Virus record (IMG/VR): IMGVR_UViG_3300034072_000067
Span: 1 to 34,710 of that record
Direction: 5' to 3' (one strand)
Source: a virus
DNA: 34,710 nucleotides
Positions 3,133 to 31,812 of this stretch are shown here, piece after piece; position 1 is the stretch's first letter, and each line of letters opens with the position of its first letter. The notes beneath the pieces were generated by a model. The model had not been told where the DNA came from and ran no database searches. It was given only the letters and a program-made list of their open reading frames with translations. Position numbers and translations under genes: made by a program.

Positions 3133-5321
3133 CAGTACAGCAAGCCTCCGGGACGCTTCTGCTTGACCAATTCTGCCTGCACCGCTGCACCGATGACAGC
3201 ACCCAGCGCCTTGGCCTGAGCGCCATCACCTTGGACGTTGCTGCCACTGGCGTCTACGTTGACCACCACATTGGCACCACCGCCAAAGCTGCCAGTCGGT
3301 GCAATGCCACCGCTACGTCCCGGCATGAACAGCTCAGGACCACGCTCGCCAACGATGTATGGCTGACCGCTGCGGACACTACCGCCGTTGGCACGGAACC
3401 CCAGCCCAACTGTGCTGAACGGAACCGAAGTAAAACCTCCGGAAATCATCGACGAACTTAAAGCACTGCCTGATACGCCTGCGTAAGAAAACCCGCCAAT
3501 ACCGCCACCACCACCACCAAACAATCCGCTGATGGCATTGATGGCTTTTTGGATAACAAATACTTGCAGCAGTTGGTTGGCGATGTCGATCAATACGCCA
3601 GAAGCGATACGCCGGAGACTGCTACCAAAATCTTCGCTGCCTTGGATCAAAGCATTAAACGCGCTGGTCATGCCTTCGCCAACTGTGTTGGCAATGCCAT
3701 CGGCTAGCACCTGCTGCTGCTTTTGTTGGTCTGTCAATGTATTTTGCAAGCCGATAATGCTTTCTAGAGCAGCAATTTGAGCTTTAGCGCTTTCGTTCTC
3801 TTCTTTGGCAAGCTCTCGCTGCATATCGCGTTGATTTGCAACAAAATCATTTTGTGCAGCAAAGATGATTGCCTGCTGAGCGCGGACATTAGTTTCCTTC
3901 GCAAGCTCTTGTGCGTAGCGATATTGCAAATCCAGTTCGCGCTGTTGACTTTGCAACCTAGCCACTTGCATTTTGTCGCCTTTCATTTCAGCAGCAGCAA
4001 TTCTGTCCTTTAGCTCTGAATTGAGCCTAGTGATTTGCCCCTCTGCCAGCCTGCTACGAATTACTTCAGCAACTCGATCAGCCTCTCTTCTTGCAGCTTC
4101 CGCGGCACGCTCAGCCTCGCGGGCTGCTTTGCCTTTGGCAGCAGTAGTGCCAGTTGGCGCAGTTGTGGTTCTAAGCGTCTGATTATTACGCTGCATAAAA
4201 TCGACTTGTTCCGATCCGGGAATATACCGACCGAACCTATCATTCATCGCTCGCTGGCGATTTGCGCCGCCACGAATAATGCTAGTGCCAAGATTGGTGG
4301 CGCCTCGAACCACTTGCATAGCCCAGCCTGGTGGCGTAAGGTTTGCAAAGTACCATTGCAGTTGCTCTAAACCGTTTAGCAATGGTGCTAACTTGCCCGC
4401 CATAAACTCGAATGCCAATGCAACATCTCTAATGTTTTGACTGCCATCTTGCAAAGACCGTGTAAGTGCTTTTATGCTTTCAATAACCACAGGCATCAAT
4501 GCTTCAGATATTGCAACTTGGAACTCTTCAAAAGCATTTTGCAGGTTTTTAACTTGCTGAGCTGGACCTTGCATTGCCGCCTCAAGCTGCCCAGCGCCAT
4601 CAGTTGCAGCACGTTGAAGCGCACGAATAACCACATCGCTGGTGATCTTGCCCTCTTCGGCAAGCTCGCGAATTTGGCTGACAGGAGCATTTAACTCTTT
4701 GGTCAGAGCAACAACAAGTCCGGGTGCCTGTTCAAGAACAGAATTAAGTTCTTGTCCGCGTAGCACGCCAGATCCAAGCGCTTGAGTTAACTGCAGCAAT
4801 GCGCCTGCTGACTCAGCGGTCGTTGTTCCACTAACTTTGGCGGCAGTATTGAAGCCAACAAATGCAGACTCAATGTCTTGCAGGCTGACGTTCAAAGGTC
4901 GTAAACGCCCGTAGAGCTGCGCGAATTGTTGGTTCGATTCAGTAGCACTTAAGCCAAATTGTCTTCCGGTGCGCGCCGCTGCTTCTTGAGCCTGAGCGAC
5001 TTCGTTGTAACCTTTAGCAAGAAAAGTCAATCGACGCGATGATTCTTCGCGCTGAATGCCAACATCAACCGCTTGCTGTGCAATGCGCAAAGCGCCATAA
5101 GCTGCGGCAACTTTTGCTACGGAATTAGCCAGTCCGACAAGACTAGATGCCGCTTGTCCGGCATTAGCCCTTGTTCTGCCTAATGCCGAATTGGTGCCAT
5201 TTACGGCTTGTGTTAATTGTTGCGTAGAAGAACTGGCGCGTCCAGACGCATTATTAACTTGCTGCAAGGCTTGTATAGCCTGCCGCGCATCAACCCTAAG
5301 CTCGACGTTAGAGACTGCCAT
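3132..5321 (-). CDS. Tail tape measure protein
   Basis: At 729 residues this is the longest tail gene. Residues about 70-250 match the tape-measure N-terminal domain: SSRRLTFLAKGYNEV, then LTQALGSGVLRGQELNSVLEQ and EEGKITSDVVIRAL. A long charged Ala/Gln/Arg-rich coiled-coil segment follows (about 400-530), and the C-terminus carries the common GGSVRSGQPYIVGERGPELF motif. It sets tail length and is ejected with the DNA. It follows the G/GT chaperone by 9 bases, as in lambda. By eye the DNA from about 3780 to 5320 is richer in A/T-ending codons than its neighbours, which may mean it was exchanged as a block. Confidence 0.93.
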   Translation of the reverse strand: MAVSNVELRVDARQAIQALQQVNNASGRASSSTQQLTQAVNGTNSALGRTRANAGQAASSLVGLANSVAKVAAAYGALRIAQQAVDVGIQREESSRRLTFLAKGYNEVAQAQEAAARTGRQFGLSATESNQQFAQLYGRLRPLNVSLQDIESAFVGFNTAAKVSGTTTAESAGALLQLTQALGSGVLRGQELNSVLEQAPGLVVALTKELNAPVSQIRELAEEGKITSDVVIRALQRAATDGAGQLEAAMQGPAQQVKNLQNAFEEFQVAISEALMPVVIESIKALTRSLQDGSQNIRDVALAFEFMAGKLAPLLNGLEQLQWYFANLTPPGWAMQVVRGATNLGTSIIRGGANRQRAMNDRFGRYIPGSEQVDFMQRNNQTLRTTTAPTGTTAAKGKAAREAERAAEAARREADRVAEVIRSRLAEGQITRLNSELKDRIAAAEMKGDKMQVARLQSQQRELDLQYRYAQELAKETNVRAQQAIIFAAQNDFVANQRDMQRELAKEENESAKAQIAALESIIGLQNTLTDQQKQQQVLADGIANTVGEGMTSAFNALIQGSEDFGSSLRRIASGVLIDIANQLLQVFVIQKAINAISGLFGGGGGGIGGFSYAGVSGSALSSSMISGGFTSVPFSTVGLGFRANGGSVRSGQPYIVGERGPELFMPGRSGGIAPTGSFGGGANVVVNVDASGSNVQGDGAQAKALGAVIGAAVQAELVKQKRPGGLLY

Positions 5322-5330
5322 AGCGCCAGT

Positions 5331-5507
5331 TTACTTGCGTCTGGCTTTGTCCATAGCCTCCTTCTCGCGTTCGCCTTTCAGCTCGTAGTACGCAGCAAAG
5401 TGCATGAACTCTGCATCGGTCAGTTCAGTCCGCAACCGGCTGATTGTCATGCCAAGCTCAGATGCCAGGAAGAACTCAAAGAAGAGCCAGTTATCCTGGC
5501 TCAGTCT
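5331..5507 (-). CDS. Tail assembly chaperone, -1 frame extension (gpT part of gpGT)
   Basis: This ORF is read only by a -1 shift at the end of gpG. The product would be 117 residues of G plus 58 residues of T, 175 in all. The extension includes ASELGMTISRLRTELTDAEF and FAAYYELKGEREKEA, the pattern commonly seen in T-type extensions of siphophage chaperones. It has no start of its own near the beginning. It ends at TAA (5331-5333), 9 bases before the tape measure start. In lambda the T part recruits the tail tube protein to the chaperoned tape measure. Confidence 0.85.
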   Translation of the reverse strand, partial: RLSQDNWLFFEFFLASELGMTISRLRTELTDAEFMHFAAYYELKGEREKEAMDKARRK

Positions 5508-5513
5508 TTTTTT
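5484..5513 (-). promoter_or_regulatory. Programmed -1 ribosomal frameshift site with stem-loop
   Basis: Read on the minus strand, seven A residues (5513-5507) followed by G give the X XXY YYZ heptamer A AAA AAA in the G frame. Four bases later comes a perfect 7-bp hairpin: GAGCCAG (5502-5496), loop GATAA, CTGGCTC (5490-5484). The zero-frame stop overlaps the start of the stem. Slippery heptamer, short spacer and hairpin are the three classical elements of a -1 frameshift signal. Confidence 0.85.
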
Positions 5514-5857
5514 GCTTCTTCTAGGCTCTCGTCGCCGCCAAGGCCAAACAGGAACAATTCAAGCTCATTCAGCACGCTCTCAGGCAGCTCGCGTTGCAGC
5601 TTGGCGGCATCAGCAGGTGCAAATGCTTTCTTGCCGTCTTCCAGCTCTGCCATCTGGCACAGCATCTGTGTACTGATCTCCAGAGCCTCGTCGCTACCGG
5701 CCAGCGTGGTGGCACGCTTGCGGTCGGCGCGTGTGATCGGCTTGAAATACAGATCCAACACCGCTTCGCCTGCAGCATTCTTGATGCTGAACTTACGGCG
5801 CTGGTTAAGGTCAAAAGCCCCAGTGAGCAGGTCAACGGGGCGCTGTGAGGCTGGCAT
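5501..5857 (-). CDS. Tail assembly chaperone, short form (gpG-like)
   Basis: A 118-residue acidic protein located between the tail tube genes and the tape measure, where lambda-type phages encode gpG. It contains KRATTLAGSDEALEISTQML and ends in EEAKKD. Its last codons contain the slippery sequence A AAA AAG, preceding an in-frame TGA at 5501-5503. The protein is expected to coat the tape measure protein during tail assembly and not to remain in the virion. The start overlaps the preceding tail-tube stop by one base (TGATG). Position, length and the frameshift site together identify it. Confidence 0.85.
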   Translation of the reverse strand: MPASQRPVDLLTGAFDLNQRRKFSIKNAAGEAVLDLYFKPITRADRKRATTLAGSDEALEISTQMLCQMAELEDGKKAFAPADAAKLQRELPESVLNELELFLFGLGGDESLEEAKKD

Positions 5858-6276
5858 CAGATGCTCAGGGTGAGAGTACCGCTAGAGACGAAATTGATAG
5901 TCACAATCTCGATCTCGCCAACAGTAGCGGAGTATTCGGTACTTGTCACCACAATGGTGCCGGTGATCTTTTTGCCGCCGGTTTCGTCCAAATACAGCTC
6001 AACCGCTGCATCAGCTTCGTCGGTGACTTGGTTGGCATCTTTGATCAGGTCCAGCTTGTCGCCAGCGCTGGGCGCGTCGTACATCACCTCGATGGTGCCG
6101 GTGCCGCTGATCAAGCCGCCGATGTTGGCACGGTAGGTGTCGCCGTGAGCGGTGGCATCATAGGACTCCTTTTCGACGGTCATCGACCACGACCGCACTG
6201 CAGCGATCTCGGAAAGACCACCGCTGCCAGCCTTGTCAAAGAAGACTGTGCCTTGCTGCCCGCGATAAAAAGCCAT
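5857..6276 (-). CDS. Tail tube protein, copy 2
   Basis: A 139-residue protein that aligns along its whole length with the upstream gene at 6279-6695. Shared blocks are MAFYRGQQG, RSWSMTVEKES, GDTYRAN, GGLISG and EYSATVGEIE. It is compact and beta-rich in appearance, as expected for a gpV-type tail tube subunit, and lies directly before the G/GT chaperone. It starts two bases after the stop of its paralogue. Which of the two copies is the bulk tube subunit cannot be told from sequence; one could be a minor or decorating tube protein. Confidence 0.78.
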   Translation of the reverse strand: MAFYRGQQGTVFFDKAGSGGLSEIAAVRSWSMTVEKESYDATAHGDTYRANIGGLISGTGTIEVMYDAPSAGDKLDLIKDANQVTDEADAAVELYLDETGGKKITGTIVVTSTEYSATVGEIEIVTINFVSSGTLTLSI

Positions 6277-6278
6277 GA

Positions 6279-6695
6279 TCAGATGTCCAGAGTGATGGCG
6301 CCGTTGGTGACGAAGTTGACGGTGATCACTTCGATCTCACCAACGGTAGCCGAGTATTCAGCCGAGGTAATCACGCCGTCAAAGCTGATCTTCTTGGTGC
6401 CGCCGGTATCAAGGTACAGCTCAAACAGGGCAGCGCCTGCATCGTTGGCAGTGTTGACATGCTCGATGAACACGTTGGTTTCATCGGCGCTGCTGGCGGT
6501 GTACATCAGCTCGCAAGTGCCGCTGCCGCTGATCAAGCCACCTACGTTGGCGCGATAGGTATCACCCAGTGCAGTGGTATCGAGCGATTCTTTCTCGACG
6601 GTCATCGACCACGAGCGAGTGCTGGTGATTGCTGCAGCGGCGGAGCCAGCGTCGTCGAACTTAACGCTGCCTTGCTGCCCTCGGTAAAAAGCCAT
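6279..6695 (-). CDS. Tail tube protein, copy 1
   Basis: A 138-residue paralogue of the following gene, sharing the N-terminal MAFYRGQQG and the central SWSMTVEKES and GDTYRANVGGLISGSGT blocks. The region around residues 70-90 and the extreme C-terminus diverge. The gene follows the tail terminator by only two bases. In lambda order the gene after gpU is gpV, the tail tube, so this copy occupies the canonical place. An intact frame and even conservation suggest it is expressed and not decaying. Confidence 0.78.
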   Translation of the reverse strand: MAFYRGQQGSVKFDDAGSAAAAITSTRSWSMTVEKESLDTTALGDTYRANVGGLISGSGTCELMYTASSADETNVFIEHVNTANDAGAALFELYLDTGGTKKISFDGVITSAEYSATVGEIEVITVNFVTNGAITLDI

Positions 6696-6697
6696 GG

Positions 6698-7123
6698 TTA
6701 GAGATCCTCGAAGGTTTCAAAGGTCAATCTGACCTGTGTTTGGAAGAAACCCTCTGGCGCCGGCGTAGCCACTACCTCGGGTCCGATCGGCGGGTCAAAA
6801 TGAACACCGCTGACTATGACCCTATTGTATAGATCCCTGATGCGCTTGCCGATCGTTAAGTTAGCGCCCGGACCAACGCCAAGTGGCGTAAAGATGTTGA
6901 TGGCAACAACGCCAATGATGCTGTTGTTGCTGCCAGTGGTGCCGCCTTGGGTCAGGTATTCATTAGCGCCAAAGCTGACAAGGCATTGCACCCATGAGCT
7001 GTTAGGCGTCGGCACATAGGGTTGATTGTGGAACACCACCGGAATAGCAGGCGACAGCGCCAGCTCTGTTGCAAGCCTGCCTTCAACGGTGGCGCGGATC
7101 GTGTTGAGGTTTGCAGCAGCCAT
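6698..7123 (-). CDS. Tail terminator-like protein (DUF4128 type)
   Basis: A 141-residue protein starting MAAANLNTIRATVEGRL, with PVVFHNQPYVPTPNSSWVQ in the middle and EGFFQTQVRLTFETFEDL at the end. This layout resembles DUF4128 and tail terminator (gpU-like) proteins that cap the tail tube and join it to the head. It lies between the gp10-like connector and the tail tube genes, as expected. The ATG overlaps the preceding stop by one base (TGATG). Family call is from recalled sequence pattern and position. Confidence 0.7.
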   Translation of the reverse strand: MAAANLNTIRATVEGRLATELALSPAIPVVFHNQPYVPTPNSSWVQCLVSFGANEYLTQGGTTGSNNSIIGVVAINIFTPLGVGPGANLTIGKRIRDLYNRVIVSGVHFDPPIGPEVVATPAPEGFFQTQVRLTFETFEDL

Positions 7124-7527
7124 CAGCCTTGCCTCTTAATGCGTTCCCAGTTGGTGTTGACAAAATTCTGCATCTCACGGGCTGTGCGATCTACCCAGCC
7201 GGCAGGCGCTTGTTTGCTGCTGCCCTGCGCCAATGATTCAGCGTAGGGCAGGTTGTTGTGAACGCTGTAATAGTTGCCGAGCTTTTCTTGTCCAGCTTGA
7301 TAATTGTCGCCCTTAGGCGGCGTAATGGCAGCGCCGTATTGACCGTCAGGCGCAGGCGTACTGGCCGCGGCATTCTCGCCAATCTGCCAGCTAAAACGAA
7401 ATCGGCCAGTGTCAACAGGGCTTTGCTGCTTAAGCCTGCTATCCGTTTCTAGCACCGTCACGCGCAACAGCTTCTCAAGCTGATCGCCCATGTAGTTACC
7501 GATCTGGCTGATGGGCAGGTTGCTCAT
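7123..7527 (-). CDS. HK97 gp10-like neck/tail-completion protein
   Basis: A 134-residue protein with the hallmark SPVDTGRFRFSW near residue 40 and NLPYAESLAQGSSKQAPAGWV near residue 94. These are the two conserved blocks of the HK97 gp10 (gpZ-like) family that acts in head-tail joining. It overlaps the preceding connector gene by four bases (ATGA) and the tail terminator by one. Position between head closure and tail terminator agrees. Confidence 0.85.
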   Translation of the reverse strand: MSNLPISQIGNYMGDQLEKLLRVTVLETDSRLKQQSPVDTGRFRFSWQIGENAAASTPAPDGQYGAAITPPKGDNYQAGQEKLGNYYSVHNNLPYAESLAQGSSKQAPAGWVDRTAREMQNFVNTNWERIKRQG

Positions 7528-16877: not shown

Positions 16878-17900
16878 TCAGTTACGGATTTGCACTGGCA
16901 TAACTAAGTATGTCATATCCATGCTACTCGGCGTCAACACGACCGGAGCCGTCTGCGCATTGGCGGACAGTGTAACCGTTTCGGAATCACGCATCGCCTT
17001 GAGGCCATCCAGCAGGTAATGCACGTTGAAGCCCCAGTGGCCTTTAGCGGTGCCGTCGTAGGCGATGATTTCAGTGCCGTTGTTGGCATCGGCCTCAGCG
17101 GTGATGGTCAACTGCTTGCCAGCGGTCAGCTTGACGACATCCGCAAGGAGCGCCACACGCTCCAGCGCACGAGCAAAGCGGTGCCGGTCCAGCGTGATGG
17201 TGTGCTCAAAGCTGGCAGGCACCAATGCGGCCACATCGGGGTACTTGCCATCAAAGATGCGGCTGTAGATGGTGATGCCATCACCGGCATCGATGACGGC
17301 CTGACCAGTGGCGGTAGCAACCGTGACGCTGCGATCCTGCAGCAGCTTCATTGTGGTGGCCGGTAGCACAAGGTCGATGCCATCAGGCAGCTCTACCGGC
17401 ACGCGCATGAGTCTATGACCATCGGTTGACTCCATGACGCCTGCTGCTAGGTGGATGCCTTGCAAGATCTGCTTGCTGGCATCGGTGCTGACGGCTGCCA
17501 TGCAGGCGCGCACGCCAGCGGTCAGGTCCAACTCAGCGCTAGGAGCCTCTACAACAGGCAGAGCGGGGTAATCGGCTGCATCACACGCAGCAAGCCCATA
17601 AGAGCCGCTAGAGGCGCTTACAGAGCCATCTGAGAGGGTTACAGGCTCACCATCGTCCATGCGGCTAATCAAACCAGCCAGCAAGCGGTACGGCAATGCC
17701 ACGGCGCCAGCGGTATCAACAGCAGCAGGCACGCGGACGGTGATGCCTAGCTCCAAGTTGAAACCGGTCACGGTCATGGCGCCGCCGTCGGCGGTGATGA
17801 GGCAACAGTCAAGGATCGGATGCGAGCTGCGCACGCCGATCGCTGGTGCAATGGTGCGCAAGGCGTGACTGAGGTCAGCCTGCGTTGTGATGAGTTTCAT
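16878..17900 (-). CDS. dnaN: DnaN-type beta sliding clamp
   Basis: A 340-residue homologue of the bacterial DNA polymerase III beta clamp (about 366 in E. coli). Visible features are the N-terminal LSHALRTIAPAIGVRSSHPI (cf. the usual 'PILsnil' segment), LQGIHLAA with STDGHRLM (the strongly conserved 'aTDghRLa' motif), IFDGKYPDV ('g.yPdy'), and the terminal YLVMPVQIRN ('YlimPmrl'). Three clamp domains can be laid out along it. It would tether a polymerase to DNA. No DNA polymerase gene is seen in this window, so it may recruit the host replicase or one encoded outside. It is coupled by ATGA to the ORF upstream. Confidence 0.92.
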   Translation of the reverse strand: MKLITTQADLSHALRTIAPAIGVRSSHPILDCCLITADGGAMTVTGFNLELGITVRVPAAVDTAGAVALPYRLLAGLISRMDDGEPVTLSDGSVSASSGSYGLAACDAADYPALPVVEAPSAELDLTAGVRACMAAVSTDASKQILQGIHLAAGVMESTDGHRLMRVPVELPDGIDLVLPATTMKLLQDRSVTVATATGQAVIDAGDGITIYSRIFDGKYPDVAALVPASFEHTITLDRHRFARALERVALLADVVKLTAGKQLTITAEADANNGTEIIAYDGTAKGHWGFNVHYLLDGLKAMRDSETVTLSANAQTAPVVLTPSSMDMTYLVMPVQIRN

Positions 17901-18097
17901 GAGGCGGCTTCGGTAAGGATGGAAATGAGCCGGTGATAGTCGGCTTCAAACGAGCTGACCAGTTCAGCCGGTATTGGCTGCTGATCATCCTGCGCATTGT
18001 CGCGGATAGCCGCGGCATACGCAAGCGCTTGGGTCATGCAGTCATGGAGTCGGTTGATGACCGGTTGCTGCTTGACGGAGATGTTGATGCGATCCAT
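17897..18097 (-). CDS. Small hypothetical protein (66 aa)
   Basis: A 66-residue helical, acidic protein containing HDCMTQALAYAAAIRDNAQD and LVSSFEADYHRLISILTEA. The stop overlaps the dnaN start by four bases, and the gene starts inside the end of the RHH gene (64-base overlap). No family recognised; the translational coupling suggests it is expressed. Confidence 0.55.
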   Translation of the reverse strand: MDRINISVKQQPVINRLHDCMTQALAYAAAIRDNAQDDQQPIPAELVSSFEADYHRLISILTEAAS

Positions 18098-18330
18098 GTG
18101 ATAACAAACGCGACGATGTGCTCCACCATGCGCCGTGGAATGTCACCACGGACGCAGGTAAGCGCTTCGGACACTAGTCGGTGATAGCCGGCAACGCTGA
18201 GTCCTGCGTCACAGTTCGCAACAAGCGCCCGCGACCGGATCAGCTCCGACCGGCTGACGCCCGCCATGGCTGCGTGGTGGTCTAGCACTGCAAGGTCTGC
18301 AGGCGTGAACCGGACTTTGATTTCCTTCAT
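18034..18330 (-). CDS. Ribbon-helix-helix DNA-binding protein
   Basis: A 98-residue protein whose first 35 residues fit the RHH (Arc/CopG) fold: a beta strand KEIKVRFTPADLAVLDHHA, then AGVSRSELIRSRAL, with the GVSRSE turn. The C-terminal Ser/Thr-rich end lies in the overlap with the next ORF and may be poorly constrained. The gene begins five bases before the first 12-bp repeat of the array at 18336, so it is a natural candidate to bind those repeats and regulate itself or replication; that link is inference. Confidence 0.75.
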   Translation of the reverse strand: MKEIKVRFTPADLAVLDHHAAMAGVSRSELIRSRALVANCDAGLSVAGYHRLVSEALTCVRGDIPRRMVEHIVAFVITWIASTSPSSSNRSSTDSMTA

Positions 18331-18335
18331 TCGGT

Positions 18336-18695
18336 GGCGGACGCAAAGAATGCAGTGTACAACAGCGTTTTCAGCGATGGCGGACGCAAGTAGGTCATAG
18401 GCGGACGCAAAAAACCTAGTCGTAGCAAGGGAGGACGCAAAATCGCGGTTTTTCCTTACCCCCTATATGTTTCACGTTTCTTCCCCCTTCTCGTTTTTCT
18501 ATACACGTTATTTATCCCCTATTTGCGTCCGCCAAGGTAAAAAGATAGATATAGACAGGGTTTTTGCGTCCGCCATTTGCGTCCGCCTAGCGTCCGCCGT
18601 GACGCAAGTTGCGTCCGCCAACCGTCTCACCATGCGTCCATCTTGAGACCCTCGATAAGACGGTCTCTGGATTTGCCGCCTCGGGCGGACGCAAG
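18336..18695 (+). repeat. 12-bp iteron-like repeat array, two opposed blocks (candidate replication origin)
   Basis: Consensus GGCGGACGCAAA (reverse complement TTTGCGTCCGCC). Forward-orientation copies: 18336-18347, 18379-18390, 18400-18411, and a one-mismatch copy at 18430-18441. Reverse-orientation copies: 18522-18533, 18563-18574, 18576-18587, a partial copy 18588-18598, and 18609-18619. One more forward copy (18684-18695) lies inside the 3' end of the primase gene. Copies at 18601-18619 also form a GACGCAA/TTGCGTC palindrome. The array fills the 296-base gap between the RHH gene and the primase-helicase. Clustered short repeats around an easily melted core beside a primase are typical of iteron origins. 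Confidence 0.85.
18442..18521. other. Pyrimidine-rich, low-GC core between the two repeat blocks
   Basis: About 80 bases without any repeat or ORF, strongly biased to C and T on the plus strand with T-rich and TA-rich patches (for example CTATATG near 18473 and TTATTTAT near 18508). It sits centrally between the opposed repeat blocks and is the likeliest unwinding element if the array is an origin. Confidence 0.55.
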
Positions 18696-20984
18696 TTTCG
18701 GGAAGATTTGGCGTAGCGCCGGCACCAGCAGCCGTGGCGCCTTGACCGTGCGGTCGCTCGGCGGGTCCATAAGCCAGCGGTCATTCTTATCTAGATAGCC
18801 CTCATCTCTGTACCAAGTTTGCAATGCATCCCAAACGCGCTTTACGGCCACCGATGAACCTTCTTCATAGTGCAATCCAATAGCGTCACAAAACTCCCAG
18901 ATGTGACAACTTGCACGCCTTACATCTTCCATTGCCTGCCGGCCTGAGCTGTAATCAATGCCATGCTCAATGGACAGAGACAATCCCTCTAGCAGCCAAT
19001 TTAAGAACGCTGGGCATATCTGCTGCTGGATAAAGTCTGGGTCATCCTTTAATCGTGGGTCGGCTTGAATGTGGCTTGATTCTGTAGGCGTTGCCATGAA
19101 CGTCTTGCAAAACTTAAACACATGAAACCGCGTCTCAATGGCCACCTGATCGCCTGCTAGCGATGGGTCTTTGTTCAGGTTGAACACGAAGAGCGATGAG
19201 GGTACAAACTGCGATTCCTGTACACCTTTCAGCTCGTAAGACAGCTCTTCGCCGCTGATAGCAGCCTTGAGGGATTGCAGGTTGTCAATGTGTACAAACT
19301 GGCTGTTTTCAGATGACCAGTTGACCGATGCACCACGCAGCGGAGCGATCGGGAACTTGCGGCCTTGGTCGTACTGGCGGAAGTCAGCCAAGGTGCAGGA
19401 CGTGAAATTGCGGCTGCCAAGGGTGTCGCGCAGGGCGGTGCGGATGGTGTCTTTGCCGTTGCTGCCTTCACCGATCATGAGCACGGCCCGTGGCCTGCCG
19501 CGTGTGGCGCGGTATTTGGTTAGGTCAAGACCACTGCCAAGGATGCGCTGCAGCGTGTCGCGGTCGGTCGGTTCAACAGCTTCGAGCAGCCGCCATAGGT
19601 GTTGCGGGTTTGCTTCGGGGTCGTAGGCATAGGCGGTGACGTATGTGAACGCCGTGTCTGGGTCGTGTGGCGTAAAGCTGTAGTTGAGCTTGCGGCCATT
19701 CCATGACCACGACACCACGCCATTGGCGCAGTTGATCGCATTTGATGGGTTGACTGGTACTGGGTCCAGCAGCCGCCGCATCCACACCAGCGCCTCATCG
19801 ACGTATTTAGGGCGCTTCCATGGGTAGGAGTGCTCGCCAGTTTTGGCATCAACGACATGCATTTGCGACAGCAGCGCTGCAATGCTGGGCGCCAGCTCTT
19901 CATCGGTGATGGGCTTGTAATGGGTGCCGCACCAGTAATGGAGCACGTTGTCAACGCAGATCCAGCGTGGCGACTGTGACTGGAAAACGTGCTGGACCAC
20001 AAGATCTAGCCATTCGGTATCGGTTTTGCTGTAGAGGCGCAGGTTGATGACCTCTGGCTCTACGGCTTGACGCTTACCACGAGCAACGGGAACTGGCGGC
20101 TTCCAGCCGTGATGCCGCGCCCAGTACCAAAAGGTGCCAGCACTGATCTGGTCGCCACCTGAGCTGGCGATCTGTTGCAACCCCTTCCATTCAGGGCTGT
20201 GCTGCTGCATGAGGCTGATGGCTTGATCTACGTCGCCGCAGGCTTTGATCAGACCCCAGAAAATGTTGCGGTAAATGTGGTAGGTGCCGGTACCCGGCTG
20301 CCGTGGCGGTATGCAGGCAAGCGCCTCGCGCACTTCATCAATGCTGCGCTCGATCGGTTCGGCATGGGACTGCGCTGGCTTTTCGTGCTTGTAATAGGTC
20401 TCAGACGGCAGCGCTGCTTCGATGTCTGCAACGCTATAGCGGTGCCCTGTATGGGACACCATTTGGCACATCTCGCCTAGCCCGCCATCAGCACCGACGT
20501 GGTAGGTGCCCGGCAATCGCATGACACGAGCAGGATTTTTGATGCTGCGATCTGCATCGGCGTAATCAAGCAAGCGAGCTTGCAGCAATCGCCAGTGCTC
20601 AATGGTGATCGGCTCGGACAGAACCCAGTAATTATGTATCGACTTGCCGCCGGTTGAGACCTGCATAGTCGGCTCTGGCAGCCGCAGTTCTTTCCATGCG
20701 GTGAGCTGCCAATCGGTTGGCCGGTTGTCCCATTCGCAGAAGAATGCGCGGCAAGTGGTGATGTCTGCATCCTTGTCGCCGCCGTCGTTGATGACCACAT
20801 AAACGCCGCGGCCTTCGCGCTGCCATTCGTTAATGCGGATGCGCGAAAAACCGCCTTTGCGGCCAGCGTCATCAGCTTTCTTAGGATTCTCCGCGTGATA
20901 AAACGCCCGCAGGCGAATCTCTCCGGCAGGCTTGCCAAGCGCATGGACAAACTGCCTGCCCAGCTCAAAGTCAATTTTCTTCAT
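18627..20984 (-). CDS. Primase-helicase (AEP primase plus D5-like SF3 helicase)
   Basis: A 785-residue replication protein. The N-terminal part (to about residue 165) resembles archaeo-eukaryotic-type primases: FFCEWDNRPTDWQ, STGGKSIHNYWVLSEPI and NPARVMRLPGTYHV. A middle region including FWYWARHHGWKPP looks like a PriCT-type linker. The helicase has Walker A GEGSNGKDT at about 505-513, followed by NWSSENSQF and VFNLNKDPSL, as in phage D5-like SF3 ATPases. The ORF is open to 21182, but I chose the ATG at 20984: GGGAG lies 7 bases upstream and it overlaps the RHH gene stop (ATGA). Iteron-like repeats follow immediately downstream, one inside the gene. Confidence 0.9.
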   Translation of the reverse strand: MKKIDFELGRQFVHALGKPAGEIRLRAFYHAENPKKADDAGRKGGFSRIRINEWQREGRGVYVVINDGGDKDADITTCRAFFCEWDNRPTDWQLTAWKELRLPEPTMQVSTGGKSIHNYWVLSEPITIEHWRLLQARLLDYADADRSIKNPARVMRLPGTYHVGADGGLGEMCQMVSHTGHRYSVADIEAALPSETYYKHEKPAQSHAEPIERSIDEVREALACIPPRQPGTGTYHIYRNIFWGLIKACGDVDQAISLMQQHSPEWKGLQQIASSGGDQISAGTFWYWARHHGWKPPVPVARGKRQAVEPEVINLRLYSKTDTEWLDLVVQHVFQSQSPRWICVDNVLHYWCGTHYKPITDEELAPSIAALLSQMHVVDAKTGEHSYPWKRPKYVDEALVWMRRLLDPVPVNPSNAINCANGVVSWSWNGRKLNYSFTPHDPDTAFTYVTAYAYDPEANPQHLWRLLEAVEPTDRDTLQRILGSGLDLTKYRATRGRPRAVLMIGEGSNGKDTIRTALRDTLGSRNFTSCTLADFRQYDQGRKFPIAPLRGASVNWSSENSQFVHIDNLQSLKAAISGEELSYELKGVQESQFVPSSLFVFNLNKDPSLAGDQVAIETRFHVFKFCKTFMATPTESSHIQADPRLKDDPDFIQQQICPAFLNWLLEGLSLSIEHGIDYSSGRQAMEDVRRASCHIWEFCDAIGLHYEEGSSVAVKRVWDALQTWYRDEGYLDKNDRWLMDPPSDRTVKAPRLLVPALRQIFPKLASARGGKSRDRLIEGLKMDAW

Positions 20985-21157
20985 GCCTGCTCCCTGTATC
21001 CAGTGGCGGGCAACAGACCTTGGCCGTGCAGCCGTATGGCCTGCTGGAGCAGCAGCCTGATCGCGGCGCTGCGGGAAATGGTCTGACCACGCCAAGAGTC
21101 CAGCCATTGCAACTGGTCTGGCGACAGGCGTAGCGGTATTGGTCTGGCAAGCGGCAT
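20981..21157 (-). CDS. Small ribbon-helix-helix protein (58 aa)
   Basis: The ORF starts at the ATG at 21157, reads in a different frame from the primase's upstream open region, and ends in an ATGA overlap with the primase start. The product begins MPLARPIPLRLSPDQLQWLD and continues SRSAAIRLLLQQAIRL, a good RHH pattern (strand, helix, turn, helix). It is the first gene of the leftward primase transcript and sits next to the divergent promoters, so an autoregulatory role is plausible. Confidence 0.7.
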   Translation of the reverse strand: MPLARPIPLRLSPDQLQWLDSWRGQTISRSAAIRLLLQQAIRLHGQGLLPATGYREQA

Positions 21158-21175
21158 CGGCTTCCGGCTGGGTGC

Positions 21176-21204
21176 TTGACAAGCGTATACGATTAGTCTA
21201 CGGT
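21176..21204 (+). promoter_or_regulatory. Rightward promoter of the divergent pair
   Basis: Plus strand: -35 TTGACA (21176-21181), 17-base spacer, -10 TACGGT (21199-21204, keeping TA and the final T). Transcription would begin near 21211 and enter the rightward gene block starting at 21228. Confidence 0.5.
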
Positions 21205-21435: not shown

Positions 21436-23694
21436 ATGACCTACAAAGACTTCCTAGCCTCAAAATCCACAGCCTGCGCGCCTGCAGGTTTTGACCCGCC
21501 TAGCTTCACCGCGCCGCTGTTCCCTTTTCAGCGGGACATCGTGACCATGGCTTGCCGTGTCGGCAAGTTCTGCATCTGGGCTGACTGCGGCATGGGCAAA
21601 ACGGCCATGCAGCTTGAGTGGGCGCATCAAGTGCATCAGCACACCGGCGGCAATGTGCTGGTCCTAGCGCCGCTGGCCGTGGCGCATCAGACCGTGAGAG
21701 AGGGTGCCAAATTCGGCATCCCGTGCGCGTTCGCTGCGACGCAAGCCGACGTGCAGCCCGGCATCACGATCACCAACTACGAGAAGCTCAGTCATTTTGA
21801 TCCAGCAGCTTTTGACGGCGTGGTGCTCGATGAGAGCAGCATTCTCAAGGCGTACACCGGCAAGATCCGCAACCAGATCATTGAGTCGTTCAGCCAGACA
21901 CCGTTCAGGCTGGCCTGTTCAGCCACACCAGCGCCCAACGATCACATGGAGCTTGGCAATCATGCTGAGTTCATCGGCGTGATGACCCGCACCGAAATGC
22001 TGGCCATGTTCTTTGTGCATGATGGGGGCGACACGAGCAAATGGCGCCTCAAGGGTCACGCCAAGGACAAGTTCTGGGAGTGGGTCTGCAGTTGGGCGGT
22101 TACCATCCGCAAACCATCGGACCTTGGCTACGAGGATGGCAACTTCATCCTGCCTGAGCTGCGGATCCAAGACTGCACAGTTGAGACACCGCGCGAGGCT
22201 ATGGCAGATGATGCTGTCCAGATGGCACTGTTTGCTATGGAAGCCCGTACGTTGAGCGATCAGCGGCAAGTGCGTAAGGCGTCACTGCAGATGAGGGTCG
22301 ATGCCGCTGCGGCGCTGGCCAACGACAGCACTGAGCAATGGCTGATCTGGTGCGATCTCAACGATGAGTCAAAGGCACTCACTGCTGCCATTGATGGCGC
22401 GGTCGAGGTATGTGGTAGCGATAGCGATGACCACAAGCGCAAAGCCGCGATTGATTTCCAAGACGGCAAAATCCGCGTACTGGTCAGCAAGCCCAGCATC
22501 TTTGGCTTTGGCTTGAACTTTCAAGGTTGCCACAATGTCGCCTTTGTTGGTTTGTCACACAGCTACGAGGCGTTCTATCAAGCGATCCGGCGTTGCTGGC
22601 GTTTTGGTCAGCAGCATCCGGTCAATGCACACATCATCTACGACGTGGCTGAAGGGCGCGTGATTGAAAACATCCGCCGTAAAGAGGCGGACAGCATCGC
22701 AATGGCTGAATCAATGGTCACCATCATGAAACAAACCACTATGGAACAACTCAAGAAGATCCAGCGTCAAGTGGCGCCGCATGTCACTGAGCACAAGTCC
22801 GGCGACAATTGGGATCTGTACATGGGCGATTGCGTCGAGAGCATCAAGCAACTCGATTCCGATAGCATCCACTACAGCATTTTCAGCCCGCCCTTTGCGT
22901 CGCTGTACACCTATTCAAACAGCGACCGTGACATGGGCAACAGCCGTAATGATCAGGAGTTTTTCGATCACTTTGTCTATCTAGCCAAGGATCTGCATCG
23001 GGTGATGATGCCCGGCAGGCTGATCAGTTTCCATTGCATGAACCTGCCCAGCAGCAAAGAGCGTGATGGCTTTATCGGCGTCAAGGATTTCCGCGGTGAC
23101 ATGCTGCGCATCTTCCAGTCGGCTGGATTTGTGTTCCATTCAGAAGTATGCATCTGGAAAGATCCAGTGACTGCGATGCAACGCACCAAAGCGATCGGGT
23201 TACTACACAAGCAAGTGCGCAAGGATTCAGCCCTTAGCCGCCAAGGCATCCCTGACTATTTGGTCACGGTACGCAAGCTGGGCGACAATCCTGAGCCATG
23301 TGAAGGACCATTTACGAAGTTTGCCGGCGAGAATCCACCCGCCAAAACTGGCGACGCGATCAAAGACAGCATCAACATCTGGCAGCGGTATGCCAGCCCT
23401 GTATGGATGGACATCAATCCATCTGACACGCTGCAATACCGCAGCGCCCGCGCCAATGAGGATGAGCGACACATTTGCCCGCTGCAGCTTGAGGTGATCC
23501 GCCGCGGACTGCAGCTTTGGAGCAATCCAGGCGATCTGGTGCTCAGTCCATTTGCCGGCATCGGCAGCGAGGGATACGTCAGCCTGCAGATGCAGCGGCG
23601 CTTCGTTGGCTTCGAGTTGAAGCCCAGCTATTTCAACTGCGCGGTCAAGAACCTGAAGCAGGTTGAGGCACACAAGCAAGGGGAGTTGGTGTGA
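21436..23694 (+). CDS. SNF2-type helicase fused to a DNA methyltransferase
   Basis: A 752-residue two-domain protein. Residues about 25-435 are an SF2/SNF2 ATPase: Walker A CGMGKT (51-56), motif II DESS (132-135), motif III SAT (162-164), and motif VI QAIRRCWRFGQQ (382-393). Residues about 455-745 are a DNA methyltransferase in beta-class order: catalytic SPPF (484-487) first and the SAM-binding SPFAGIGSEG (704-713) last. SPP(Y/F) is more usual in N4-cytosine enzymes, so m4C is the better guess, with m6A possible. The linker (435-455) is short. It could modify phage DNA while translocating, protecting it from restriction. The next gene starts on its stop codon (TGATG). Confidence 0.88.
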   Translation: MTYKDFLASKSTACAPAGFDPPSFTAPLFPFQRDIVTMACRVGKFCIWADCGMGKTAMQLEWAHQVHQHTGGNVLVLAPLAVAHQTVREGAKFGIPCAFAATQADVQPGITITNYEKLSHFDPAAFDGVVLDESSILKAYTGKIRNQIIESFSQTPFRLACSATPAPNDHMELGNHAEFIGVMTRTEMLAMFFVHDGGDTSKWRLKGHAKDKFWEWVCSWAVTIRKPSDLGYEDGNFILPELRIQDCTVETPREAMADDAVQMALFAMEARTLSDQRQVRKASLQMRVDAAAALANDSTEQWLIWCDLNDESKALTAAIDGAVEVCGSDSDDHKRKAAIDFQDGKIRVLVSKPSIFGFGLNFQGCHNVAFVGLSHSYEAFYQAIRRCWRFGQQHPVNAHIIYDVAEGRVIENIRRKEADSIAMAESMVTIMKQTTMEQLKKIQRQVAPHVTEHKSGDNWDLYMGDCVESIKQLDSDSIHYSIFSPPFASLYTYSNSDRDMGNSRNDQEFFDHFVYLAKDLHRVMMPGRLISFHCMNLPSSKERDGFIGVKDFRGDMLRIFQSAGFVFHSEVCIWKDPVTAMQRTKAIGLLHKQVRKDSALSRQGIPDYLVTVRKLGDNPEPCEGPFTKFAGENPPAKTGDAIKDSINIWQRYASPVWMDINPSDTLQYRSARANEDERHICPLQLEVIRRGLQLWSNPGDLVLSPFAGIGSEGYVSLQMQRRFVGFELKPSYFNCAVKNLKQVEAHKQGELV

Positions 23695-30912: not shown

Positions 30913-31812
30913 ATGTCTGACAGCATCAAAGACTATCTCAACAGTATTGCTAGACATCCACTGTTGACAGCGCAGCAAGAGATACAACTTGGCCGTCGTG
31001 TCGTCAGATGGAGAGAACTGCGCGACAAGGAGCAGTTAACCCCAGACGAGCGGCGCGAGCTGCGCAGCGGTGAACGCGCCCGTCAACGGTTTATTCAATC
31101 CAATCTGCAACTGGTCGTTCATGTAGCGCGCAAGTACGACCGCAGGCAGAACAAGACGCTAGAGCTGATGGATCTGATCCAAGAGGGCAATATCGGTCTT
31201 GCGCGTGCTGTTGAGTTGTTTGACCCCGCTCGGGGGTACAAGTTTTCGACTTATGCCTATTGGTGGATACGTCAAGGCATCACACGGGCGCTGATCATGC
31301 AGGATTCGATGATCAGACTGCCATCATCGCTGCATGAGCAGTTGTACAAGATTAACCGCACAGCACAAGATCTAACGCATAAGTTGTGCCGCCAGCCAAC
31401 ACTGATGGAGCTGGCTGATGCTACTGAGATGGATGCCAAAGATTTATCAATGATGCTGAAGCGTGCCTACAAGGTAACTAGCTTAGACCAAAAAGTGCAA
31501 GATGCCGAAAGCGGATCAATTTGCGACACCATTGCAGATCCATCTTGTCTTGAAGAAGATGTTGCAAGATCACAGGAAATAAACAGCATGATGAGATATT
31601 TTTGCAAGTATCTTGACCCGATTACGCAACAAGTAATACAGGCCAGAAACCTAGCCGTACCAGTCACTTGGACCGCTTTGGAAGATCAGATGAATATGAA
31701 CAAAACCAGACTGCAAAACATCGAACGTCGTGGCATGAATCGGCTGCGTATGCTGATGAGTAACCCTTTGGACGATACGCCGCTTGGACATGTCACCACC
31801 AACAATCCATAA
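30913..31812 (+). CDS. Sigma-70 family RNA polymerase sigma factor (group 2-like)
   Basis: A 299-residue sigma factor. Region 1.2: DSIKDYLNSIARHPLLTAQQ. Region 2: LVVHVARKYDRR, LMDLIQEGNIGLARAVELFD and GYKFSTYAYWWIRQGITRA (2.3-2.4). Region 3: SSLHEQLYKINRTAQDL and RQPTLMELADAT. Region 4 (about 235-285) is present but diverged, ending in TRLQNIERRGMNRLRML in place of the usual HTH 'RVRQIE'. The N-terminal part resembles cyanobacterial group 2 sigma factors. AAAGGA lies 7 bases before the ATG. It likely redirects host polymerase to phage promoters. The 3' half is A/T-rich. Confidence 0.92.
   Translation: MSDSIKDYLNSIARHPLLTAQQEIQLGRRVVRWRELRDKEQLTPDERRELRSGERARQRFIQSNLQLVVHVARKYDRRQNKTLELMDLIQEGNIGLARAVELFDPARGYKFSTYAYWWIRQGITRALIMQDSMIRLPSSLHEQLYKINRTAQDLTHKLCRQPTLMELADATEMDAKDLSMMLKRAYKVTSLDQKVQDAESGSICDTIADPSCLEEDVARSQEINSMMRYFCKYLDPITQQVIQARNLAVPVTWTALEDQMNMNKTRLQNIERRGMNRLRMLMSNPLDDTPLGHVTTNNP

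Follow-up and report, generated by a model that had tools for sequence, protein, structure and literature searches.

A mirrored iteron array next to a PrimPol-helicase gene as the probable replication origin of a cyanobacterial phage, with related arrays on cyanobacterial plasmids

The repeat array at positions 18336-18695 of the virus record IMGVR_UViG_3300034072_000067 (IMG/VR; all 34,710 nucleotides, positions 1-34,710, were analysed and are called the window here) is best explained as the replication origin of a cyanobacterial phage, bound and opened by the primase-helicase (Rep) encoded beside it through the steps proposed below, and we give this whole explanation a probability of roughly 85%. 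That the array is a phage replication origin is well supported by the comparison of related loci, and we further suggest that Rep itself is likely to be the protein that binds the repeats.

The repeats, their orientations and the pyrimidine-rich core described in a previous sequence-only reading of this DNA were all recovered. The word TTTGCGTCCGCC occurs in 18336-18695 five times exactly, nine times with at most one mismatch and ten times with at most two, and the remainder of the window contains no exact copy, none with one mismatch and three with up to two. Dinucleotide shuffling of the local 360 bp (300 shuffles) gave no copy at 0 or 1 mismatch, and a word-free scan of the whole window for opposed clusters of 8-mers returned the array as its sole match. 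The copies form two opposed blocks that flank the core, with one more copy in the 3' end of the primase gene. The Rep-proximal block lies on the plus strand and consists, from the Rep side inwards, of GTTGCGTCCGCC (18608-18619), whose spacing is conserved in relatives, of CTAGCGTCCGCC with two mismatches (18587-18598) and of three exact copies (18576-18587, 18563-18574 and, innermost, 18522-18533). A partial reversed copy (18600-18608, minus strand, read as TGACGCAAG on the plus strand) abuts the outermost iteron and forms a palindrome with it; this palindrome had been overlooked, and in the alignment many relatives have a full reversed copy at this position (palindrome GGCGGACGCAACTTGCGTCCGC). 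The distal block, on the minus strand, starts at the core with TTTGCGTCCTCC (18430-18441), whose CTCC ending is retained by part of the phages, and continues with an exact copy (18400-18411), a third site (18379-18390) and a second exact copy (18336-18347) located 5 bp from the start codon of a ribbon-helix-helix (RHH) protein gene. The core, presumed to be the melting region (18442-18521, 80 bases), is 78% pyrimidine on the plus strand and therefore purine-rich on the Rep strand, with 41% GC; its stability is in the lowest 1% of the window, yet some other stretches of the window are less stable. Runs of the type AGGGGG recur on the Rep strand within the core, both in the window and in its phage relatives.

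The copy inside the Rep gene (18684-18695, minus strand, oriented opposite to the adjacent block) is conserved at its synonymous positions. Its codons AAA, GCG and TCC are invariant across 52 phages while neighbouring codons vary synonymously, and its leucine, where present, is written CTT in every case. Since these synonymous positions are frozen, the DNA word itself is under selection, a feature which the sequence-only reading did not pick up. A scan for promoters and terminators found no site of either kind, and the GC skew, recommended earlier as a check, has no clear switch and was uninformative for the origin.

The window, a tailed-phage contig, encodes terminase, portal, capsid, tape-measure and endolysin proteins, and the array is placed between the minus-strand Rep gene (18627-21182) and a series of RHH, DnaN and terminase genes on the same strand. 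The RHH protein (NikA-like/RHH_1; 18034-18330, minus strand) is encoded by the first gene past the array, followed by DnaN, a phage-encoded DNA polymerase sliding clamp with three DnaN domains (16878-17900, minus strand), whose gene is absent from several relatives. Elsewhere, the phage encodes a sigma-70-type factor with regions 1.2, 2 and 3 (30913-31812) and, divergently from Rep, an SF2 helicase fused to an N6/N4 DNA methylase (21436-23694), for which the matched part and the identity differ between relatives. Because all 75 of the 75 relatives found in a collection of bacterial and archaeal genomes belong to Cyanobacteria, the host of the phage is very probably a cyanobacterium.

Rep combines a PrimPol domain, an SF3 helicase (D5/P4-type, DUF5906) and a C-terminal winged helix, and the start codon used by the family is likely the ATG that begins at 20984. 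Profile matches were obtained with DUF5906, D5_N and TIGR01613, the last below cutoff, and the N-terminal part is 44% identical to the PrimPol of cyanophage S-2L. The model of the helicase with the C-terminal domain is confident (mean pLDDT 88.4, pTM 0.81), and its structural matches are SF3 rings that include the SaPI5 primase-helicase and the AsfvPrimPol hexamer and dodecamer. The C-terminal domain, encoded at 18630-18950 (minus strand), is modelled with the helix and hairpin order of a winged helix. Taken in isolation it gives weak structural matches (best E 0.036), the nearest informative one being the RFX DNA-binding domain on DNA (TM 0.71 by target, E 0.056). The structure and the covariation described below lead us to propose this domain as the reader of the iterons.

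A blastn search with the array region recovered no array from phage or plasmid records. A pattern of three GCGTCCGCC words led to many further phage contigs in which the repeats are opposed in the same way, and the same Rep gene adjoins the array wherever the contig extends that far. Thus the cluster is present beside the same primase in close relatives, where the sequence-only reading had proposed to look for it. The spacings are nearly identical from phage to phage: <43<21<125>41>13>11>21>73< in the window and <42<21<29<106>40>12>32>73< in a relative (L030). The words are less stable than the layout; other phages (such as L018 and L012) keep the layout with most copies altered to TTGCGTCCGA, and further phage words are CGAAGGCA and CGGAGGCA.

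The same opposed arrays, with other words, were found on cyanobacterial plasmids that encode a homologous helicase, among them small plasmids of 4.4-4.6 kb. Their words include GACTCAC on a 4.6-kb plasmid of Cyanobacterium aponinum and TTAACCC, CGACCCA and CCGCACC on Nostoc plasmids, and the array frequently sits within the rep ORF, beyond the conserved domain. The N-terminal part of Rep differs in these plasmids (in the alignment it looks, by eye, zinc-finger and Toprim-like), and the helicase and C-terminal domain are common to both groups. To quantify this linkage, 80 viral and 75 genome loci were added and duplicates removed, which gave 152 distinct Rep loci from phages, cyanobacterial plasmids and genomes, and we considered an array as linked when an opposed 8-mer cluster with a score of at least 5 occurred within -100 to +800 bp, counted from the conserved FPK motif close to the end of Rep. 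Such a cluster was detected at 135 of these loci, and the same procedure applied as a control to the other sequence of the same loci gave 9 clusters in 1,287 kb; the earlier placement of an origin beside the primase-helicase is therefore supported by comparison. The best words comprise 39 different 8-mers, or about 28 distinct iterons after merging of shifted registers. The 152 loci are related to one another and do not represent 152 independent events; even so, the diversity of words points to many changes that were independent. The 8-mer scan found no array at the remaining 17 loci, and in several loci lacking an exact-word array a spacing-template scan had its top match at the expected place. 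One locus (L251) has a broken frame.

Several plasmids depart from the common arrangement. The 4586-bp plasmid of Cyanobacterium aponinum (L088) has a rep ORF that spans the start of the record and was missing from the gene table used, with the array in the 3' part of this ORF, and it also encodes a CopG-type RHH protein. Two plasmids bear two opposed arrays each (L095 at 4931-5543 and 5900-6475; L098 at 4870-5244 and 5565-5891), with different words in the two arrays of L095 (CACCCCAA and AAACCACA), and initiation may there be separated from control. In L205, an inside-out array begins 98 bp past the Rep FPK motif, with the spacing 9-31-12-11-21, then 65, then 21-11-12-32-9 and with reversed words, as though the blocks had traded places. 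A short-core variant (9-30-12, about 18, 12-30-9) is found in Oscillatoriales (L233-L242), where the word differs in nearly each replicon.

Measured from one iteron start to the next, the spacings of arrays with different words agree almost to the nucleotide. The common plasmid pattern is mirrored, 21-11-12-31-9, then about 105 across the core, then 9-31-12-11-21, with six sites per block, which is also the commonest size of plasmid blocks. The Rep-side spacing of the phages, 21-11-13-41, corresponds to the plasmid block minus the 9-bp site, and the far side reads 30-21-43 or 30-11-10-31. Counted from the innermost site as 0, the positions 40-42, 51-54, 63-65 and 84-86 are common to the plasmid blocks and the phage Rep-side blocks, and position 9 is found in plasmids only. 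The blocks of the window have 5 and 4 recognisable sites and are imperfect mirrors. The sequence-only reading held a mirror layout to be less common than direct iterons, but in this Rep family the mirror is the rule. Within blocks, phase coherence is highest at a period of 10.5-10.75 bp (0.78; random spacings gave a null mean of 0.42 and a maximum of 0.47), and the iterons thus face one side of the helix. When the spacing-template scan was run with permuted orders it also recovered the arrays, because these orders share pair distances; the scan did not discriminate the order of spacings, and the claim on order is carried by the direct spacing counts. In block orientation, 35 of the 39 words have a conserved CA at the core-facing end, which is given as a description. 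Plasmids that have the same PrimPol and a DUF3987-type Rep either lack an array or have a mirrored one with another spacing (9-12-12-66-9-9 in L256), and the geometry therefore goes with the helicase part. The mirrored arrays of two such records are within the rep 3' end (L256 at 7059-7441 and L257 at 5013-5490, words TGTCAGC and TGTTGAC).

Iterons control copy number in many plasmids, and the array could be mainly a copy-number, incompatibility or partition element, a Rep-binding sink or a centromere, with strand opening elsewhere. A ParM gene near rep in several related plasmids would agree with this possibility. We consider it quite improbable, since the array is also carried by phages, which do not depend on partition, since most arrays have a GC-poor core between the blocks (the core has less GC than its locus in 93% of 117 cases), and since the mirrored geometry is more in keeping with two rings being loaded than with a sink.

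The sequence-only reading named either the RHH protein or the primase-helicase as binder of the repeats, and the second half of this proposal is the one favoured by the data. The array stays beside the Rep gene where RHH and DnaN are absent, and it is retained in plasmids despite their different Rep N-terminal region. Mantel tests were performed on 55 representatives picked by the core-facing CA register. Iteron distance was correlated with the distance of the C-terminal domain when the helicase was controlled for (partial r 0.41, permutation p 0.0005), and with helicase distance when the C-terminal domain was controlled for (partial r 0.16, p 0.001); the helicase, too, diverges together with the iterons (r 0.64), which makes the attribution to the C-terminal domain a statistical one. 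For the RHH protein, 46 phages were used that have RHH and DnaN and fall into three word classes. The word followed the Rep C-terminus given RHH (partial r 0.77) and was independent of RHH given the Rep C-terminus (partial r 0.03). Nearest neighbours predicted the word correctly for 39 of the 46 phages with the Rep helicase, 32 with the Rep C-terminus and 19 with RHH, and since this favours the helicase over the C-terminus, the attribution to one domain relies on the Mantel tests. Rep is accordingly graded as the likely binder, and RHH is not likely to be one because the word diverges with the Rep C-terminal domain and not with RHH.

These data also bear on the possibility that the array is an operator, at which RHH would repress its own promoter, that of the downstream RHH-DnaN-terminase operon. 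RHH/CopG proteins usually bind short repeats, the distal iteron lies 5 bp before the RHH start and RHH genes occur near related Rep genes in two plasmids. Repeats of such an operator would co-occur and co-vary with the RHH gene, and those of the array do neither. An RHH homologue is detectable in 51 of 65 distinct phage loci with sufficient sequence and not in the other 14, of which 13 have the array in the same layout; the phage L012 has neither RHH nor DnaN beside the array and carries instead a phosphoesterase and a ParB/methylase-like gene, both named by eye from their translations. Together with the frequent location of plasmid arrays within rep, the word's independence of RHH and the lack of a promoter-like site in the scan, this makes an operator very improbable. 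Finally, a pac or cos site recognised by the phage terminase, whose large subunit gene is 1.8 kb away, is extremely improbable, as the same architecture occurs on small plasmids and around rep in cyanobacterial contigs, and the TerS-like gene of L010/L012-type phages lies about 2.5 kb beyond the array.

Considering the array as an origin, we propose the following course of initiation. Each iteron would be bound by the winged helix of one Rep C-terminus, and each block, whose iterons share almost the same face of the helix, would thereby gather the subunits of one Rep ring. The facing blocks would set two rings around the weak core, consistent with the loading of a double hexamer; ATP-driven Rep would then open the DNA at the core, PrimPol would prime forks that presumably run in both directions, and the primers would probably be extended by the host polymerase on the phage clamp. 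The six sites of a plasmid block equal the number of subunits in an SF3 ring, which suggests one iteron per Rep subunit, but as the phage blocks show five and four sites, this step is only a proposal. A broader idea, which we consider as likely as not, is that the block spacing reflects how a single Rep hexamer sits on the DNA, each iteron taking up one winged helix, so that a block is the footprint of one ring, that facing footprints load a double hexamer, and that winged helix and word co-evolve into new compatibility groups across cyanobacterial phages and plasmids with the geometry unchanged.

The way in which SF3 initiators, among them P4 alpha, SaPI Rep and viral relatives, come together on origin DNA is hard to make out where the sites are few and irregular. 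The roughly 28 natural word changes at fixed spacing, opposition and phase offer a table from which a recognition code of the winged helix could be derived, and the same variation allows the block to be tested as the footprint of one ring. The arrays also predict the origins of many cyanobacterial plasmids for which we found no origin description, which may be useful for vectors. In addition, an architecture that was described in 2018 as restricted to PICIs would be extended to cyanobacterial phages and plasmids. A description of this array was not found in the open-access literature, and two papers on cyanobacterial Rep proteins mention neither iterons nor DUF5906.

Among known origins, those of P4 and of PICIs and SaPIs come closest to the present one. 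PICI origins have two sets of iterons flanking an AT-rich region 3' of rep (PMC6092414). As in PICIs and SaPIs, the candidate origin is immediately 3' of a primase/helicase Rep gene, and the present helicase model resembles the solved SaPI5 primase-helicase; the SF3/D5-type helicase is followed by a C-terminal DNA-binding domain, with a modest winged-helix match. The differences are that the primase is of the PrimPol type, the plasmid relatives having a different N-terminal region, that the array can be within the rep ORF, and that the carriers are phages and cyanobacterial plasmids and not satellites, the window having the virion genes whose full set a satellite lacks. The spacing code was measured for the present arrays. 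A stretch of E. coli CFT073 considered as a PICI origin for comparison belongs to a lambdoid prophage and was thus unused. With P4, the shared features are a Rep of the P4 primase-helicase family (the TIGR01613 match, below cutoff) and repeats placed behind its gene: in P4 the crr immediately follows alpha, and its type 1 repeats, some 9 bp apart, point both ways; P4 differs by its Toprim primase and by cis sites split into crr and ori about 5 kb apart, whereas a single array was found here. In pRN1, the origin is a 100-nt stem-loop downstream of the gene for a PrimPol-SF3-winged-helix protein (ORF904; PMC4234260); the three parts in one protein and the downstream origin are shared, but pRN1 has a large stem-loop and no iterons where the window has an iteron array. 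The SCCmec Cch2 protein binds, by its C-terminal domain, iterons downstream of its gene (PMC7581432), and in the putative Cch2/CCPol-MP origin the iterons likewise follow the operon and are bound by a helicase C-terminal domain; there, primase and helicase are separate, and three short direct repeats are described without mirrored blocks. Cyanophage S-2L shares the PrimPol domain and its helicase part is unaligned; no clear opposed array was seen downstream of its PrimPol, and none with the Vibrio phage primases. On the basis of covariation, Rep would bind the iterons and drive replication from them. The present system would work like a P4/PICI origin; it differs from one in its carrier, its type of primase, its partly in-gene position and a spacing code that is kept while the words change.
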